Shown here: in pieces, positions 1,828 through 9,213 of the stretch
Layout of the letters: every line of letters starts with the position of its first letter
Position numbering within the stretch: the stretch's first letter is position 1
DNA from: Rhodospirillaceae bacterium
GTDB lineage: Bacteria > Pseudomonadota > Alphaproteobacteria > MPNO01 > UBA2964
Direction of reading: 5' to 3'
Assembly: GCA_018660305.1 (NCBI GenBank)
Contig: JABJKO010000278.1
Location: forward strand, 1 to 24,242
DNA: 24,242 nt
Notes under the pieces: generated by a model
Database searches by the model: none
What the model was told of the DNA's origin: nothing
Seen by the model: only the letters and a program-made list of their open reading frames with translations
Position numbers and translations under genes: made by a program

Positions 1828-2466
1828 ATGCCCTCATCCGGAATAGCCCGTCGCGGTCTCATGCTGGTCCTGTCGTCGCCTTCCGGGGCAGGTAAAACCA
1901 CCATATCGCGGCGCATCATGGAACAGGATTCCAATATGACCATGTCGGTCTCGGTGACGACGCGTCCGAGACGGCCGGGTGAGGAAAACGGGCGCGATTA
2001 TCATTTTGTCGACCCCACCGAGTTTAATCTGATGGTGAACCGCCAGGAATTGCTGGAACACGCCAAGGTGTTCGGCAATTACTACGGCACGCCTCGCCAG
2101 CCGGTGGAAGACGCCCTGGCCGCCGGCCGCGACGTGCTGTTCGATATCGACTGGCAGGGCGCCCAGCAGGTGGCGGAGAAAGCGCGTCAGGATCTGGTGA
2201 GCGTCTTTATCCTGCCACCCTCCACCATCGAGCTCGACCGCCGGCTGCATCAGCGGGCGCAGGATCCGGAGGAGGTGGTCGCCGCCCGCATGGCCAAGGC
2301 CTCCGACGAGATGAGCCACTATGCCGAATATGATTTCATCGTGGTCAATGTCGACATCGATGAAAGCGTCGGGCAGGTGGAAGCCATCGTCACCGCCGAA
2401 CGGCTCAGACGCCAGCGCCGGATAGGGCTTTCCGAATTCGTCAAACGCCTCCAGGAAGGCTACTGA
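1828..2466 (+). CDS. gmk: Guanylate kinase
   Basis: This enzyme transfers phosphate from ATP to GMP, giving GDP, an essential step in GTP supply. It has 212 residues, normal for the family. The P-loop SPSGAGKTT is at residues 17-25, followed by the GMP-binding region (VSVTTRPRRPGEENGRDYHF) and the FDIDWQGAQQ segment. The ATG at 1828 is preceded by the purine-rich GAGCGGA (1813-1819). The open frame extends upstream to 1759, but that part overlaps yicC. The gene is 13 bp after yicC and probably in the same operon. Confidence 0.97.
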   Translation: MPSSGIARRGLMLVLSSPSGAGKTTISRRIMEQDSNMTMSVSVTTRPRRPGEENGRDYHFVDPTEFNLMVNRQELLEHAKVFGNYYGTPRQPVEDALAAGRDVLFDIDWQGAQQVAEKARQDLVSVFILPPSTIELDRRLHQRAQDPEEVVAARMAKASDEMSHYAEYDFIVVNVDIDESVGQVEAIVTAERLRRQRRIGLSEFVKRLQEGY

Positions 2467-2548: not shown

Positions 2549-2710
2549 ATGAACGCCACAGAATTTGGGTCGAAGCACGTGTGTGAAGCCTGCGCGACCA
2601 AGTTTTACGATCTAAAACGGGCGAACGCCGTCTGTCCGAAGTGCGGCTCCAAACCAATTGCACCAAAGGCCCCGAGGGCGGCCCGGACGGTCGGAAAAAC
2701 CAAGCGCTAA
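2549..2710 (+). CDS. Short FYDLN-type zinc-ribbon protein (TIGR02300-like)
   Basis: This 53-residue protein contains two cysteine pairs, CEAC (C12, C15) and CPKC (C29, C32), that probably bind zinc. The segment KFYDLKR between them matches the signature of the FYDLN-acid family (TIGR02300/PF09538). Family members usually continue into a long Asp/Glu-rich tail. This one instead ends in a short Lys/Arg-rich tail (about residues 40-53) and is unusually small. The ATG at 2549 has AGAGGA (2533-2538) as ribosome binding site. It lies 82 bp after gmk and just before a strong terminator, which supports a real transcribed gene. Function is unknown. Confidence 0.82.
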   Translation: MNATEFGSKHVCEACATKFYDLKRANAVCPKCGSKPIAPKAPRAARTVGKTKR

Positions 2711-2760: not shown

Positions 2761-2803
2761 ACGACGGTCCCCCCGTAATTTGGCGGGGCCGCCGTTTTCT
2801 TTT
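2761..2803 (+). terminator. Rho-independent terminator after the FYDLN gene
   Basis: A GC-rich hairpin pairs ACGACGGTCCC (from 2761) with GGGGCCGCCGT (ending at 2794), with one mismatch and one G-T pair, followed by TTTTCTTTT (2794-2803). It ends the yicC-gmk-FYDLN direction. Its T-tract runs into the stop codon of the rsmA remnant, so it probably marks the original border between the two convergent gene groups. Confidence 0.8.
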
Positions 2804-3117
2804 ATGGGGTCTTCGCCTTTGCCGCGCGGGCTGCTTTTAACGCCCGGGCCAGGGCGCAGAATTCTTCCACGGAGAGTGTTTCGGCGCGGAGATCGGGGCG
2901 GATGCCGGCCACTTCCAGCAGGGACAGCGGGGCCACATCAAGGCCCCTGAGGGCCGAGCGCAGCATCTTGCGCCGTTGTCCAAAGGCCGCCGCCGTTATG
3001 GCTTCCACATCCTTGAATTCCGCCGGCGCCAGGATCCGGTCGGCGATTTCCTTCTGGAACATCGGGGTCATGGACTGAATGCCGGCAGGATCGCGCAGCG
3101 AGTCCATGAGCAGCCGG
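2802..3117 (-). pseudogene. Truncated rsmA copy (3' part only, internal deletion)
   Basis: Positions 2813-3117 align with 6036-6496 of the intact rsmA downstream: about 20 mismatches over 305 aligned bases by hand, near 93% identity. The copy lacks the N-terminal SAM-binding half. It also lacks an internal 156 bp (52 codons, in frame), with one GCCAG left at 3028-3032 where the intact gene has GCCAG at both 6251 and 6407. The surviving frame (about 101 residues from an internal ATG) has no frameshift, but it cannot be a working methyltransferase. It keeps its own ending (AKAKTP and TAA at 2802), abutting the terminator, so this is probably the original chromosomal 3' end of rsmA. Homology to rsmA stops abruptly at 3117. 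Confidence 0.88.
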
Positions 3118-3457
3118 TCTGGCTTAAAGTCTTTCGCGCGTCACCCATCCCATCGTCACCTTTGGAATAAATCCGAGGGTGTCCGGTATAATTGTTGGAT
3201 AATTTTTTTGTGCGCCCGACGGCACGCGATTCTCCCGTCCTCGCCACGCCAACTTCTATTGGACTGGGCTATTGGACTGGGGAGGGAAAGCTTTTCAATG
3301 GATTTTCCGGGACTTCGCGGTCACCGGGAGGATCGAAGACTATCAGATGATGAAAAGGTTTTTTACTACTATAGGTAAAGGGATATGGGGTGGTTGCTCG
3401 CAAAAATCTTGAATAATTGTTAACATAAACGGGTAACTATAAAAATATGCACATTAC
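3118..3457. other. Non-coding leader of the chemoreceptor insertion
   Basis: No recognisable gene is seen in this stretch, which begins at the exact end of the rsmA homology. It becomes AT-rich toward the right. It contains a perfect 13-bp tandem repeat (3256-3281). It also contains a 26-codon frame (3298-3378) preceded by a good GGAGGG purine stretch, but the peptide resembles nothing known to me. A weak promoter-like pair, TTGAAT (3409) and TAACTAT (3434), has too long a spacer to trust. Confidence 0.5.
3256..3281. repeat. Perfect 13-bp tandem duplication
   Basis: CTATTGGACTGGG occurs twice head to tail (3256-3268 and 3269-3281) with no mismatch. It lies upstream of the chemoreceptor and has no clear function; replication slippage is the simplest origin. 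Confidence 0.9.
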
Positions 3458-3550
3458 TTATACATATGAGAATTGATCTCATATATATAAATGCAAATGA
3501 GAACTATTCTCATATGTATAAGTGAAAATGATAATTAATCTCTTATGTAT
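3458..3550 (+). promoter_or_regulatory. Three 31-bp repeats with Fur/IRO-box-like palindromes
   Basis: Three contiguous 31-bp units (3458-3488, 3489-3519, 3520-3550) each carry a 15-bp dyad: TGAGAATTGATCTCA (3467-3481), TGAGAACTATTCTCA (3498-3512) and TGATAATTAATCTCT (3529-3543). A fourth, partial unit (AAGTACAAATG) follows at 3551. The spacing is exactly 31 bp, close to three helical turns. The dyads resemble the Fur 7-1-7 consensus (TGATAATnATTATCA), and the first two also fit the rhizobial RirA/IRO form TGA-N9-TCA. TATAAG occurs at 3517-3522 and 3548-3553; the second could be the -10 of the chemoreceptor promoter, with the operators over or just upstream of it. The dyads and spacing are seen directly; iron control is inference. 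Confidence 0.7.
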
Positions 3551-3636
3551 AAGTACAAATGGCGATTCTGCCGGCCAAAATCAGTTTGCGTTCGGTGCGG
3601 CGCATTTCAAAACGCAAGCAAAAGGAAAGTATTGTA

Positions 3637-5802
3637 ATGAATCCCGACGATCAGAATCAAACGGCTGATGATGCGGCGCCCACCGACAGCGACGATAACG
3701 TTGCTCCGAAAACATCGGTAAAATTGAACTCAACGACAAACGCTGGATCACGGCAGAACCTGCTGCGGAATAGTGGCATTGGGAAGAGAATATGGTCCAT
3801 CGTCGGCATTGCGGCGGCTGGGGTAATCGGTCTCGGAATTACCTCGGCAGTATTCCAGTCGAAGTTCGATGCCAACCAGACCCAGCTCGATTCCTACACA
3901 TCGATCGCCAGTCTGATTAGTAAACTGGAGATTAACGCGCTTCAGATGCGACGAAGCGAAAAGGATTTCTTGCTGCGCAGGCTCCCTAAATACCGGGGTA
4001 AATACCTGAAGGCCGCCAAACACGGCCAGGCGGTACTCGGTGAGATCCGTCAGGTGCCCGCTGCCAAGGGGGTCGACGGCGCATCGCAGAAACTTTCCGC
4101 GGGCGTCAAGACCCACATTGCCCAGTTTGAAACTGTCTTCAATCTCCAGAAAACGCTCGGTTTCAATGAGAAGTCGGGACTGCAGGGCGCACTTCGCAAG
4201 GCTGTCCACGGCGTGGAGACCTATTTGAAGAAAGTGAAGCTGGATAATCTAACGGTCAAGATGCTGATGATGCGCCGGCACGAAAAGGATTTCATCATGC
4301 GCGGCGCGCAAAAATATGTCGCCCGTATCGACAAGCGGCAGGCTGAGTTCCGGTCGTTATTGGCGGCATCCACTCTCCCTCCGGCCACACAGAAGGCGAT
4401 AAACGGCCTGTTGAATGATTATGTCGGAAAATTCAAGAATTTTGCCGAAACCAGCCTGATCCTCAAGAAGGAAACGAAGAAGCTTTCGAGCATTTTCGCG
4501 GCCATGGGGCCGTCATTCAAAAAGGTAACGGTATTTTCCCAAACGCGGTTAACCGAGGCACGAGCCACCTACGAGCAGGCAAAAAGCACTCTCTCGCGTA
4601 CCTTGATTGGGCTCACGATCGGCATCCTGATAGTCAGCATTTTTGTCGGATTTTTCATCGCCCGCAGCATTGTTAGTCCGGTTCAAATTCTGTCGGGCGC
4701 TGTCTCGAGGCTGGCGGATGGCGATACCGACGTTGAGATCGTGGGCACGGAATTCCGCGATGAGACTGGCACCATGGCGAAAGCGCTTGAGGTGTTCCGA
4801 GGGAATCTGATCGAAGCGAAAAAGCTCGAATCCCAACAGCGCGATGCCGAGAATAAGGCGCAGGCAGAAGAGCGTCGGCATGAGGCTGAGAAACAGGAAG
4901 CCTCAGGCAAGGAGGCGGAGCGAAAAGAGCGCGAAGCCGCCGAACAGCATAAGCGGACCGAGCAAATCGAAAAGATCATTGCTTCCTTCGACACGCAGAT
5001 CAGTTCAGTCGTAGAGACGTTAAGCTCGGCGACGACGGAGATGCAGTCATCGGCTGAAACCATGTCGGCGACTGCGGAGCAAACCAACAAGCAGGCAACC
5101 GCCGTCGCTGCGGCTTCCGAAAAAGCGTCGGTCAACGTTCAGACGGTTGCTTCTTCCACCGAAGAACTGTCGGCTTCGGTCGAGGAAATCAGTCGTCAGG
5201 TCACCCAGAGCAACGAAATCGCCCAGAACGCGGTGAATGAGGCGAAACAGACCAATGAGAAGGTTGAGGGTTTGGCCGAAGCCGCTCAAAGAATTGGCGA
5301 TGTAGTCAATCTAATTAACGACATTGCGAGCCAGACTAATCTGCTGGCGTTGAACGCGACCATCGAAGCGGCCCGTGCCGGTGATGCCGGTAAGGGCTTC
5401 GCGGTGGTGGCATCGGAGGTCAAATCCCTGGCCACCCAGACCGGCAAGGCGACCGAGGAGATTGCTGCCCAGATCACCGCCATCCAGAACGCTACCAACG
5501 ATGCCGTACAAGCCATCCAGGGTATTGGGTCGACCATCGGCCACCTTGGTGAAATCGCAACTTCGGTCGCTTCGGCCGTCGACCAACAGGGTTCGGCAAC
5601 GCGCGAAATAGCAACCAGCGTTCAGCAGGCCGCCGCCGGCACCCAGGAGGTATCGAACAATATTACCCAGGTCACTCAGGCAGCCAGCGAAAGCCAGTCC
5701 TCCTCTACTCAGATGTTGAGCGCTTCCAAGGAACTTGCCCTGCAGGGCGACGTCCTACGTGGTGAGGTCGACAAATTCCTCCAGGAGATCCGCGCCGCGT
5801 AG
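3637..5802 (+). CDS. Methyl-accepting chemotaxis protein, HBM-type sensor
   Basis: This 721-residue chemoreceptor has a cytoplasmic N-terminal tail of about 50 residues, TM1 (about 52-73), a helical periplasmic sensor of about 245 residues, TM2 (about 322-345), HAMP, an Ala/Glu/Lys-rich coiled coil, and the MCP signalling domain. The conserved hairpin tip (INDIASQTNLLALNATIEAA) starts near 560. The sensor repeats one motif, MRRSEKDFLLR at 104 and MRRHEKDFIMR at 212, typical of two-module helical bimodular (HBM) sensors; McpS, of that family, binds TCA-cycle acids. The C-terminus (EIRAA) lacks a CheR/CheB-tethering pentapeptide. The start was set at ATG 3637 because AAAGGAAAG (3621-3629) sits at proper distance. 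An in-frame ATG at 3559 falls in the last operator repeat and has no ribosome site. There are no neighbouring che genes. It looks acquired, being flanked by rsmA duplicates. Confidence 0.93.
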   Translation: MNPDDQNQTADDAAPTDSDDNVAPKTSVKLNSTTNAGSRQNLLRNSGIGKRIWSIVGIAAAGVIGLGITSAVFQSKFDANQTQLDSYTSIASLISKLEINALQMRRSEKDFLLRRLPKYRGKYLKAAKHGQAVLGEIRQVPAAKGVDGASQKLSAGVKTHIAQFETVFNLQKTLGFNEKSGLQGALRKAVHGVETYLKKVKLDNLTVKMLMMRRHEKDFIMRGAQKYVARIDKRQAEFRSLLAASTLPPATQKAINGLLNDYVGKFKNFAETSLILKKETKKLSSIFAAMGPSFKKVTVFSQTRLTEARATYEQAKSTLSRTLIGLTIGILIVSIFVGFFIARSIVSPVQILSGAVSRLADGDTDVEIVGTEFRDETGTMAKALEVFRGNLIEAKKLESQQRDAENKAQAEERRHEAEKQEASGKEAERKEREAAEQHKRTEQIEKIIASFDTQISSVVETLSSATTEMQSSAETMSATAEQTNKQATAVAAASEKASVNVQTVASSTEELSASVEEISRQVTQSNEIAQNAVNEAKQTNEKVEGLAEAAQRIGDVVNLINDIASQTNLLALNATIEAARAGDAGKGFAVVASEVKSLATQTGKATEEIAAQITAIQNATNDAVQAIQGIGSTIGHLGEIATSVASAVDQQGSATREIATSVQQAAAGTQEVSNNITQVTQAASESQSSSTQMLSASKELALQGDVLRGEVDKFLQEIRAA

Positions 5803-5842
5803 AACTCAACCGGACACAATTTTAGGTAATGACAGGCTTATG

Positions 5843-5884
5843 AATGAAAGCAGACATCCAGAGATGATGTCTGCTTTCATTTTA
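5843..5884 (+). terminator. Perfect 16-bp hairpin terminator after the chemoreceptor
   Basis: Bases 5843-5858 pair perfectly with 5866-5881 around a 7-base loop (CAGAGAT). The top of the stem reads GCAGACATC/GATGTCTGC, the base is AT-rich, and TTTA follows. It lies 40 bp after the chemoreceptor stop. The stem is symmetric enough that it may also stop rsmA transcription coming from the right. Confidence 0.8.
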
Positions 5885-6024
5885 TACTCGGATGTCTGTT
5901 GTCAGAGGGGCGCCGCAGGTGGTTGAAAAGAGTCGCCCGGATGGTGAAATTCACACATTTTTTCACGGCTTTGACCAAAAAAATAACGTTATAAAATAAC
6001 ACGTTATAAATATATGCACCTCGT
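5885..6024. other. AT-rich right edge of the insertion, with short repeats
   Basis: No gene is visible. The stretch 5950-6024 is strongly AT-rich compared with the genes on either side. It contains the palindrome ATAACGTTAT (5983-5992) and a 10-bp direct repeat ACGTTATAAA (5986-5995 and 6001-6010). These could be a protein-binding site or part of the ancestral element; nothing decides between them. Confidence 0.55.
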
Positions 6025-6912
6025 TTAAAGGCTGATCGCCTTTGCCGCGCGGGCTGCTTTTAACGCCCGGGCCAGGGCGCAGAATTCTTCCACGGAGAGT
6101 GTTTCAGCGCGGAGGTCGGGGCGGATGCCGGCCGCCTCCAGCAGGGGCAGGGCGTCCACATCGAGGCTCCTGAGGGCCGAGCGCAGCATCTTGCGCCGTT
6201 GTCCAAAGGCCGCCGCCGTTATGGCCTCAACATCCTTGAATTCCGCCGGCGCCAGCGGCTCCTGTCTCGGCGTAAGCTGGATCACCGTCGACTGCACCTT
6301 GGGCGGCGGCACGAAGGCCTGGGCCGGGATATCGAACAGCCGTCGCACGTCGCACAGCCATTGCGTGATGACGCTGAGACGGCCGAAGCCCGATGCGCCC
6401 GGCGGGGCCAGGATCCGGTCGGCGACTTCCTTCTGGAACATCAGGGTCATTGACTGGATACCGGCAAGATCGCGCAGCCAGTCGATGAGCAGCCGGGTTC
6501 CGATGTTGTAGGGCAGGTTGGCGACGATGATACAGGGTTCATCCGTACCCGCCGCCGCGGCGGGATTGACTGTCAGCGCGTCTGCCTCGACGATTTCCAG
6601 GCGTTCGGGATAGGCGGCGGTCAATATTCCCAGAGCTTCTATGCAGCGCGCATCCCGTTCGATAGCGACAATTCTTTTCGCGTCCGATTCAAGCAGCGAC
6701 CGGGTCAGCCCTCCGGGGCCCGGTCCGATTTCCACCACCGTTCTGCCGGTCAGCGGCCCGGCTTCCCGCGCGATGCGCCGCGTCAAATTCAGATCGAACA
6801 AAAAATGCTGGCCCAGGGACCGGCGGGCGCCGAGACCGTACTGCGCGATGATCTCACGAAGCGGCGGAAGGGTGACGGCGGTGGGGGCGTCGGACGCCGG
6901 GTCAGGCGACAC
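6025..6912 (-). CDS. rsmA: 16S rRNA (adenine(1518)-N6/adenine(1519)-N6)-dimethyltransferase
   Basis: RsmA (KsgA) dimethylates two adjacent adenines in the 3' hairpin of 16S rRNA with S-adenosylmethionine, late in 30S assembly. With a GTG start at 6912 it has 295 residues. It shows LGQHFLFD (33-40), the SAM-binding loop EIGPGPGGLT (61-70), the catalytic NLPYN (132-136) and the full C-terminal helical domain. The longer open frame up to 7050 lies inside pdxA, so the GTG is preferred; it overlaps the pdxA end by 11 bp and implies translational coupling. The last residues (ISL) differ from those of the duplicate at 2802 (KTP), because homology ends at 6036. The 3' end of this otherwise complete gene therefore appears to come from the inserted DNA. 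Confidence 0.93.
   Translation of the reverse strand: MSPDPASDAPTAVTLPPLREIIAQYGLGARRSLGQHFLFDLNLTRRIAREAGPLTGRTVVEIGPGPGGLTRSLLESDAKRIVAIERDARCIEALGILTAAYPERLEIVEADALTVNPAAAAGTDEPCIIVANLPYNIGTRLLIDWLRDLAGIQSMTLMFQKEVADRILAPPGASGFGRLSVITQWLCDVRRLFDIPAQAFVPPPKVQSTVIQLTPRQEPLAPAEFKDVEAITAAAFGQRRKMLRSALRSLDVDALPLLEAAGIRPDLRAETLSVEEFCALARALKAARAAKAISL
6036..6496. repeat. Long direct repeat: rsmA 3' part, copy at 2813-3117
   Basis: This part of intact rsmA is repeated in the same orientation at 2813-3117, where 156 bp are missing. The two copies bracket 3118-6035, the chemoreceptor segment. The mismatches are scattered and mostly conservative, suggesting an old duplication or an rsmA segment from a related strain. 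Confidence 0.9.
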
Positions 6913-7945: not shown

Positions 7946-9213
7946 ACGCGGAGATCCACAATCGCCTTGGAACGCAGGTCCCGCAAATATCTTCGTGCCA
8001 GAACCTCTACACGGTCACCTTCCAGCTTTTGCTTTATGGCCTTACGAGAGGGCAAATTGCCAGCCGGCTCCTTGCGGTCACAGACCATCAGGACCGCCAT
8101 GCCACGGCCCGTCCGGACTGGCGGGCTTGCCTTTCCGACGGCGAGTGTCGTCACGGCCTTGCGAATGGTCTGGGACAAGTCACCCAGCCGAAGCTTGCCG
8201 AGCTTTGCTTCGCCTTGGGCGTTGGTTTCCTGAGCCGCGCGCGCATGATCCGTGCAGCCGGAGACCGTATCGGACAAAGTCTTGGCCAGGCTTAGCTGAA
8301 CTTTTATGTCGGAGGCGGACGATGCCTTGTCCAGAGGAAGCAGGATTTGCTGCAGATCGACGACGATATCCTTCTCGGATCCCGCCAGAACTTTGCGCTT
8401 TTGCGTCATACGGTAAATCTGAATACCGCTGAGCGTTTTTATGGGACCGGCAATTTCACCCTTGCTCATGCTGGACGCGATTTTGCGCAAGGTGCTGTTC
8501 ATGGTCGCTTCCTGCAGCCACCCGAGATCGCCACCCACCGAGGCCGTTGCGGTCTGGGAAAACTGTCTGGCAACGGCCGCAAAATTGGCGCCGCGGCGCA
8601 TTTCGTCGGTCAGTCGCTGTGCGGTGCGAAGGACCTCTGTTTCCTGCTCCGGCGTGTCGAATGGCAATAATATTTCGGAAAGCCTGTACTCCATCTGACC
8701 TTTGCGCTTCTTTAACCGGTCGAGCGTTTCGTCAACTTCGTCATCGCTGACGTTTACGCGCGGGAAAAGGACGCGTCGCATGAGCTTTTGCCAGGCTATA
8801 CGTGCGCGAATCTGGTTAACCACGGAATCCTTGGGCAATCTTTGACGCTGGAGGTAGCTATCGAAGGCGCCCGGGCGCAGCTTGTTCTGGCGTTCAATGG
8901 AGGCGATGGCTCGCTTCATGTTCTTTTTGGAAACACGAATATTGCGCCGTTTCGCTTCCTGCATCTGCAGGCGCTCGTCGATCAGATTTCTCAGGACTTG
9001 TTGGGCGAGCCGCTGTTGCAGTTTGGGACTTGGACGCAATTTCGATGAGACAATGACGACCTGCATACGCGCCCGAAGGTCGTATTCCGACACAACGTCT
9101 TCATTGACGATCGCCGCGATGCGCTGAACGCTCTGGGCCGCCGCAAAATCAGGTATATGAATTGCGGCGAAAAACACCAGGGTGGCGAGTGTTGCTGTAA
9201 CCGTTTTCATCAT
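7942..9213 (-). CDS. surA: Periplasmic chaperone / peptidyl-prolyl isomerase SurA
   Basis: SurA escorts unfolded outer-membrane proteins, including LptD, across the periplasm. The 423-residue protein begins with a signal peptide (hydrophobic LATLVFFAAIHI, predicted cleavage near AAA-QS). The N-terminal SurA chaperone domain follows (IAAIVNEDVVSEYDL onward). Next is a parvulin domain (MEYRLSEILLP through GGDLGWL to GIQIYRM). A second region near DLQQILLPL looks like a degenerate second parvulin domain. The open frame starts with a TTG at 9216 and two ATGs; the first ATG (9213) was taken, though the ribosome site is weak. It lies downstream of lptD, its best-known client. Confidence 0.93.
   Translation of the reverse strand: MMKTVTATLATLVFFAAIHIPDFAAAQSVQRIAAIVNEDVVSEYDLRARMQVVIVSSKLRPSPKLQQRLAQQVLRNLIDERLQMQEAKRRNIRVSKKNMKRAIASIERQNKLRPGAFDSYLQRQRLPKDSVVNQIRARIAWQKLMRRVLFPRVNVSDDEVDETLDRLKKRKGQMEYRLSEILLPFDTPEQETEVLRTAQRLTDEMRRGANFAAVARQFSQTATASVGGDLGWLQEATMNSTLRKIASSMSKGEIAGPIKTLSGIQIYRMTQKRKVLAGSEKDIVVDLQQILLPLDKASSASDIKVQLSLAKTLSDTVSGCTDHARAAQETNAQGEAKLGKLRLGDLSQTIRKAVTTLAVGKASPPVRTGRGMAVLMVCDRKEPAGNLPSRKAIKQKLEGDRVEVLARRYLRDLRSKAIVDLRV

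Follow-up and report, generated by a model that had tools for sequence, protein, structure and literature searches.

A chemoreceptor gene between two same-direction rsmA 3' ends in an alphaproteobacterial genome: a probable scar of homology-guided insertion

How a single chemoreceptor gene came to stand at the 3' end of rsmA, with a second piece of rsmA on its far side, is the question raised by the stretch of DNA analysed here (24,242 nt of the Rhodospirillaceae bacterium contig JABJKO010000278.1, hereafter the window), which is of alphaproteobacterial affinity as judged by its relatives. A preliminary description had proposed either a Campbell-type insertion of a circle carrying an rsmA fragment or the remains of an element that has the rsmA 3' end as its target and restores the gene. 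The features of the locus are listed below; RNA families and tRNAs were searched for in the window and none was found.

1840..2466, plus strand: gmk (guanylate kinase), convergent neighbour of rsmA; ORF with 72-89% identity to the Gmk of family relatives, start approximate
2549..2710, plus strand: FYDLN_acid gene of 53 aa (PF09538, E 3.5e-12), between gmk and the outer rsmA copy
2781..2801, plus strand: terminator-like hairpin (stem 2781-2794) and T-run, between the FYDLN gene and the outer rsmA copy
2802..3117, minus strand: outer rsmA copy, read as a decayed 3' relic, with its own stop (KTP)
3118..3636, no strand: non-rsmA leader of the MCP gene; GC content 40% as far as 3558; palindrome-like sites, three in number, at 3467-3543
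3637..5802, plus strand: MCP gene (methyl-accepting chemotaxis protein; HAMP and MCPsignal Pfam domains)
5803..6024, no strand: AT-rich DNA from the MCP gene to the complete rsmA, 40.5% GC
5842..5883, plus strand: strong hairpin (-24.3 kcal/mol, z -8.1) followed by TTTT, probable MCP terminator
6025..6912, minus strand: complete rsmA (inner copy), ending in ISL (PF00398, E 8e-52; identical database protein P0001)
6169..6225, minus strand: 57-bp run identical in both rsmA copies (outer: 2946-3002)
6256..6411, minus strand: inner-copy stretch of 156 nt absent from the outer copy

As had been claimed, the rsmA 3' part indeed occurs on both sides of the MCP gene, in two copies of the same orientation. 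These copies align in two blocks, 2798-3032 with 6021-6255 (235 nt, 92% identity, offset 3223) and 3020-3117 with 6399-6496 (98 nt, 90% identity, offset 3379), which self-blastn recovers with E-values of 6e-97 and 2e-33, and they are 92% identical over the 320 nt compared; the direct repeat of the rsmA end is real and far beyond chance. Since the offsets of the two blocks differ, 156 nt (52 codons) must be missing from within the outer copy, which also lacks all rsmA sequence 5' of inner position 6496, and with it the 5' half. Both stops fall at the same codon position after different C-terminal codons, ...KAISL in the inner copy and ...KAKTP in the outer one, and the outer stop adjoins the terminator-like hairpin, which bears out two further points of the preliminary description, namely the differing final codons and a stop of the outer copy's own beside a terminator. 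This 3' end of the outer copy is known from the window alone. The 57-bp identical run is part of an 87-bp stretch with two further differences. The longest identical run, of 70 bp near the rsmA end, does not reach significance for 20 differences spread over 305 positions (P 0.09), so that no att-like core is needed.

The outer copy carries 22 changed codons, of which 13 alter the residue and 9 do not, and among the changes are a W>S and two L>P at sites where close relatives are conserved. Over 104 codons, the Nei-Gojobori method counted 14 non-synonymous and 11 synonymous differences between the copies, which suggests that the outer copy is a relic and not a fresh crossover product. The resulting dN/dS is 0.44 (0.34 without the last three codons). 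In a binomial test, P was 0.0002 (0.005 without these codons) for a true dN/dS of 0.1, as for two functional genes, and 0.045 (0.022) for a true dN/dS of 1.0. Both values are thus unlikely; a ratio in between 0.1 and 1.0 would fit one decaying and one constrained rsmA copy, and the excess of non-synonymous change would likewise fit decay after insertion, without proving it. On the basis of its 5' truncation, the 156-nt loss, the W>S and the two L>P, the outer copy is read as a relic that is probably non-functional. The 156-nt loss sits between short similar stretches and looks like the outcome of slippage. Synonymous divergence between the copies is 0.14, part of which could be older than the insertion event.

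The arrangement without the insert was sought in the 13 genomes of the family of genome G001. An RsmA match was present in 11 of them, and gmk lay on the same piece in 11/11. In 10 of these 11 relatives, rsmA and gmk are convergent with aligned ends 6-39 bp apart, and in the eleventh (G019) 1768 bp separate the two genes; neither the MCP nor the FYDLN protein had a match on the 11 rsmA-gmk pieces, even at E 0.1. These relatives are of family level, with an RsmA only 51-66% identical to that of the window. The compact rsmA-gmk pair, whose gap is too small to house an MCP gene, and the lack of such a gene there point to the MCP gene as a lineage-specific addition. From this comparison of sequences, the MCP gene and the short FYDLN gene both look like additions of this lineage, and since the FYDLN gene is also new at the locus, more than one event would have built the region. 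The FYDLN family is found in 12 of the 13 family genomes, each time away from the rsmA match; short FYDLN genes also occur elsewhere in G001 (L147) and in G019 (L148). The empty site anticipated by the preliminary description, in which the FYDLN terminator would directly precede rsmA, was therefore found in part: rsmA does lie directly against its neighbour in family relatives, but that neighbour is gmk, the FYDLN gene being absent, and the site is gmk-rsmA. The insertion reading thus holds against family-level relatives (10/11 compact), and the same chemoreceptor in all relatives, which would have spoken against it, was seen on none of the 11 family pieces. More broadly, the best match to the RsmA of the window is 65% identical in the species collection (L001) and 67% identical in the family (G019), and among the matches listed in a large protein database the closest are P0002 (88%) and P0003 (86%).

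The added DNA appears to be a single-gene unit. Pfam scans of two of its ORFs, 3637-5799 and 3079-3375, revealed (i) MCPsignal, HAMP and one DUF948 match below the cut-off in the former, (ii) no match in the latter, and (iii) no mobile-element domain, integrase included, in either, in agreement with the earlier claim that no integrase is present. The MCP could alternatively start further upstream, at an ATG at 3559. A consensus terminator scan did not pick out the probable terminator hairpin at 5842..5883. Database MCPs are up to 72% identical to that of the window. The better MCP matches in the family genomes mostly cover residues 280-721 (the signalling part), a weaker match in G001 (35%) covers residues 82-438, and for the sensor part no solved structure gave a meaningful match. 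An MCP identical over 3559-5802 is listed for a single contig, 375303 bases long, and none of the 120 RsmA matches listed lies there; RsmA itself occurs on four contigs among the matches listed, the longest of 24242 bases, which is also the length of the window. Among plasmids, 850 records matched and none covered 80% of the query; the eight matches listed have 16-19% query coverage, all within the MCP part. Five phage records matched, each with 2% coverage and again in the MCP part, and an exact 48-base search for the rsmA 3' end in viral contigs found nothing. Upstream of the MCP gene (3467-3543) stand three 15-bp palindrome-like sites of the TGAGAA...TCTCA type with 31-bp spacing, two exact to the pattern and the third with two mismatches; across the window, the pattern has 5 strand-wise matches against 0.17 expected. 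These sites recall Fur-type operators.

Similar scars were looked for at rsmA ends elsewhere. The survey drew on loci L001-L080 and L151-L210 and on 14 further loci; once pieces without rsmA and duplicates had been dropped, it comprised 145 distinct rsmA loci, the window excluded. A convergent gmk lies downstream of rsmA in 95 of these, with a gap below 150 bp in 66, of 150-500 bp in 2 and of at least 500 bp in 27; gmk was not found in the other 50, of which 9 have less than 2 kb of DNA. Extra DNA of at least 150 bp at the rsmA-gmk junction (29/95 loci) is ordinary and rsmA-end repeats there are uncommon: repeats of at least 60 bp were detected at two of the 145 loci (L058 and L066), and among the 27 loci with a gap of at least 500 bp in L058 only. 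The preliminary description had suggested searching for the rsmA 3' end beside unrelated cargo, and both loci answer to this. In L058, from a Sneathiella MAG, 80 bp that take in the rsmA stop as well as the end of gmk occur twice, at 98.75% identity, with one glyoxalase-family gene (L058:8790-9519) between the repeats; in Sneathiella sp. HT1-7 (L046) the rsmA/gmk junction is present once. In L066, from a Kiloniellales MAG, a complete rsmA is accompanied by a 136-bp, 89% relic of its 3' end, with one scramblase-family gene (L066:1458-2560) as cargo; the two copies have different tails, as in the window, and gmk was not found on that short contig. L058 is a cleaner example of the scar than the window itself.

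A blastn pass returned 10 loci besides the window with extra rsmA matches. Two of them were kept: L066, with 136 bp, and L058, where the match is 39 bp inside rsmA and 80 bp once the gmk side is included. The eight others, of 18-52 bp, were dropped before counting; in the survey of 145 loci, matches in L060 (30 bp, away from the end of rsmA) and in L183 (25 bp) were judged to be probably due to chance and left out, and the L041 repeat and an 80-bp pair in L183 look like dispersed repeats unrelated to rsmA. The former is a repeat of about 147 bp (82%), at L041:6850-6993 and 9037-9183, that flanks pdxA-rsmA. At the protein level, 385 genomes of the class, 353 of them with a match, were searched with up to 13 candidates scored per genome; no adjacent partial second copy of rsmA was found in this search, which did detect the control G414 (the genome of L066) and is blind to repeats as short as those of L058. 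A second match was present in two genomes, on a different contig and near full length in G133 and over 30 model positions at a contig start in G397. The idea of the rsmA 3' end as a strong hotspot was rejected, the class survey of 353 matched genomes having given it no support, and 2 of 6 dispersed-repeat loci (E 1e-10, 85%, more than 300 bp apart) involve the rsmA end, which supports a hotspot weakly.

The reading that we favour, with a probability of about 0.7, is that some 2.9 kb of DNA with the MCP gene were added, guided by homology, where rsmA ends, and that the outer copy decayed later. It fits the anatomy of the locus, which consists of a complete gene, added DNA and a 3' remainder with a sharp edge in mid-gene. 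The added piece, which brought one chemoreceptor gene together with the leader and terminator of that gene, would have landed in the short gap between rsmA and the convergent gmk, rsmA homology guiding its entry. It could have been (i) a circle with an rsmA fragment, entering by a single crossover, or (ii) a linear fragment, one end of which paired with rsmA while the other was joined illegitimately inside the resident rsmA. The Campbell-type insertion first proposed is compatible with the locus, but linear DNA with one end-joined side would leave an identical scar, so the circle itself is unproven. In either case, the complete rsmA would consist of the resident 5' part and a 3' end from the incoming or duplicated copy, and would be followed by the chemoreceptor and then, next to the original terminator, by what was left of the resident rsmA 3' end. 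This left-over copy would then have decayed through substitutions and through the 156-nt deletion between short similar stretches. The duplication with its edges, the decay of the outer copy and the compact family-level arrangement are observed, whereas we infer which way the event ran, what part homologous pairing played in it and the topology, circular or linear, of the DNA that came in. Points that weigh against this reading are the newness of the FYDLN gene at the locus, synonymous divergence that may partly be older, the lack of a full RsmA with the KTP tail among the 120 proteins listed, the differing contigs of the identical MCP and of RsmA, and the lack of a repeat at most loci with added DNA.

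Alternatively, rsmA may first have been duplicated, in tandem or in part; decay of one copy and a later chance entry of the MCP gene between the two, causally unrelated to the repeat, would have followed. The 8% divergence of the two copies, the erosion of the outer one and the frequency with which the rsmA-gmk gap holds extra DNA of at least 150 bp and no repeat would all suit such a history. We nevertheless consider it unlikely, since it needs two independent events at one spot, since repeat and single added gene occur together at three loci (the window, L058 and L066), and since none of the 145 loci has a tandem rsmA duplicate without cargo.

Database proteins ending or switching within the repeat bear on two further readings. 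P0004 is the same RsmA with a last full codon at 6169-6171, and 6169 is the last base of the 57-bp shared run. P0241 (101 aa, on an ENA contig of 2909 bases) corresponds to the outer copy over residues 1-54 and to the inner copy from residue 26 to its end; as these matches overlap, the switch from outer to inner falls within the shared stretch. In addition, P0008 is a chimeric RsmA whose last 139 residues are those of the window, the rest being a different RsmA, with the joint near 6444. The joint of P0241 (outer 5' part, inner 3' part) is that expected for an excised circle or a tandem array, and an assembly fork would produce it equally. The reciprocal joint (inner 5' part and outer 3' part, an empty-site rsmA) and a full RsmA with the outer tail (KTP) were both absent among the 120 database proteins listed. 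It is with little confidence that we mention a still mobile MCP unit, in which recombination between the rsmA stretches would free a circle of about 3.2 kb with the joint of P0241, and integrase-free re-entry at rsmA 3' ends would move single genes between genomes, rsmA/gmk being a recurrent alphaproteobacterial landing site.

The same proteins raise the question of an assembly artefact, in which strain variants of rsmA were merged into one contig. The run common to both copies is exactly where P0004 breaks off and P0241 switches, and P0008 is chimeric; assembly thus does fail around this locus. An artefact as the source of the whole arrangement, the objection foreseen in the preliminary description, is nonetheless very unlikely, because P0241 carries the 5' part of the outer copy and its deletion junction a second time, on a separate contig; furthermore, the outer copy has a truncation of its own and non-rsmA DNA adjoins it at either end, features that a simple mixture of strains would not create.

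Genomic islands at gene 3' ends are bounded by attL/attR repeats, and they resemble the present locus in that the target gene is whole and a partial copy lies at the far end of the insert. A site-specific integrative element that used the rsmA 3' end as attachment site, restored the gene and lost its integrase would agree with this layout and with the recurrence at three loci, but this second proposal of the preliminary description is unsupported and hardly tenable, as no recombinase is present in the ORFs scanned, the repeats vary in length (80 bp at 98.75% in L058, 136 bp at 89% in L066, about 320 nt at 92% in the window), that of the window begins mid-gene and is 8% diverged with an identical run that is not significant, and the cargo is one unrelated gene each time.

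The preferred homology-guided insertion has counterparts among described systems. Insertion with long target duplication, whose primary description is that of Nobusato et al. 2000 (Gene 259:99), has been described in Helicobacter pylori, often with restriction-modification genes, according to the portions consulted of PMC1643837 and PMC3031569. As far as these accounts go, both cases have added genes between long direct target repeats, whereas the present cargo is a chemoreceptor gene and the repeats are unequal, one of them having decayed and lost part of its length. Laboratory crosses, in the part consulted of PMC3240628, are the source for single crossing-over of small DNA and for homology-facilitated illegitimate recombination, in which one end pairs by homology and the other is joined illegitimately; either this recombination or circle integration can leave a complete and a partial gene, as here, but the present case is known from an old scar alone. 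Plant genes flanked by repeats are also on record (PMC2869330, in the part consulted). The remark that rsmA is not known to be described as an insertion site agrees with the literature as far as consulted, in which articles on ksgA with genomic islands or integration sites and on rsmA insertion gave no description of rsmA/ksgA as such a site; titles on rsmA and insertion sites mostly concern the CsrA-type regulator RsmA.

In summary, the locus is a further example of a known, uncommon scar type, with an insertion that is supported at family level and a mechanism that we infer, and it leaves knowledge of mobile elements unchanged. Alphaproteobacteria often have additional DNA in the gap that separates the convergent rsmA and gmk (29 of the 95 loci with gmk). 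With three scars that share a gene end and differ in cargo, the proposed route can be tested by comparison, and the locus provides a readable scar of the way in which a chromosome may gain an accessory gene in the absence of any recognisable mobile element.
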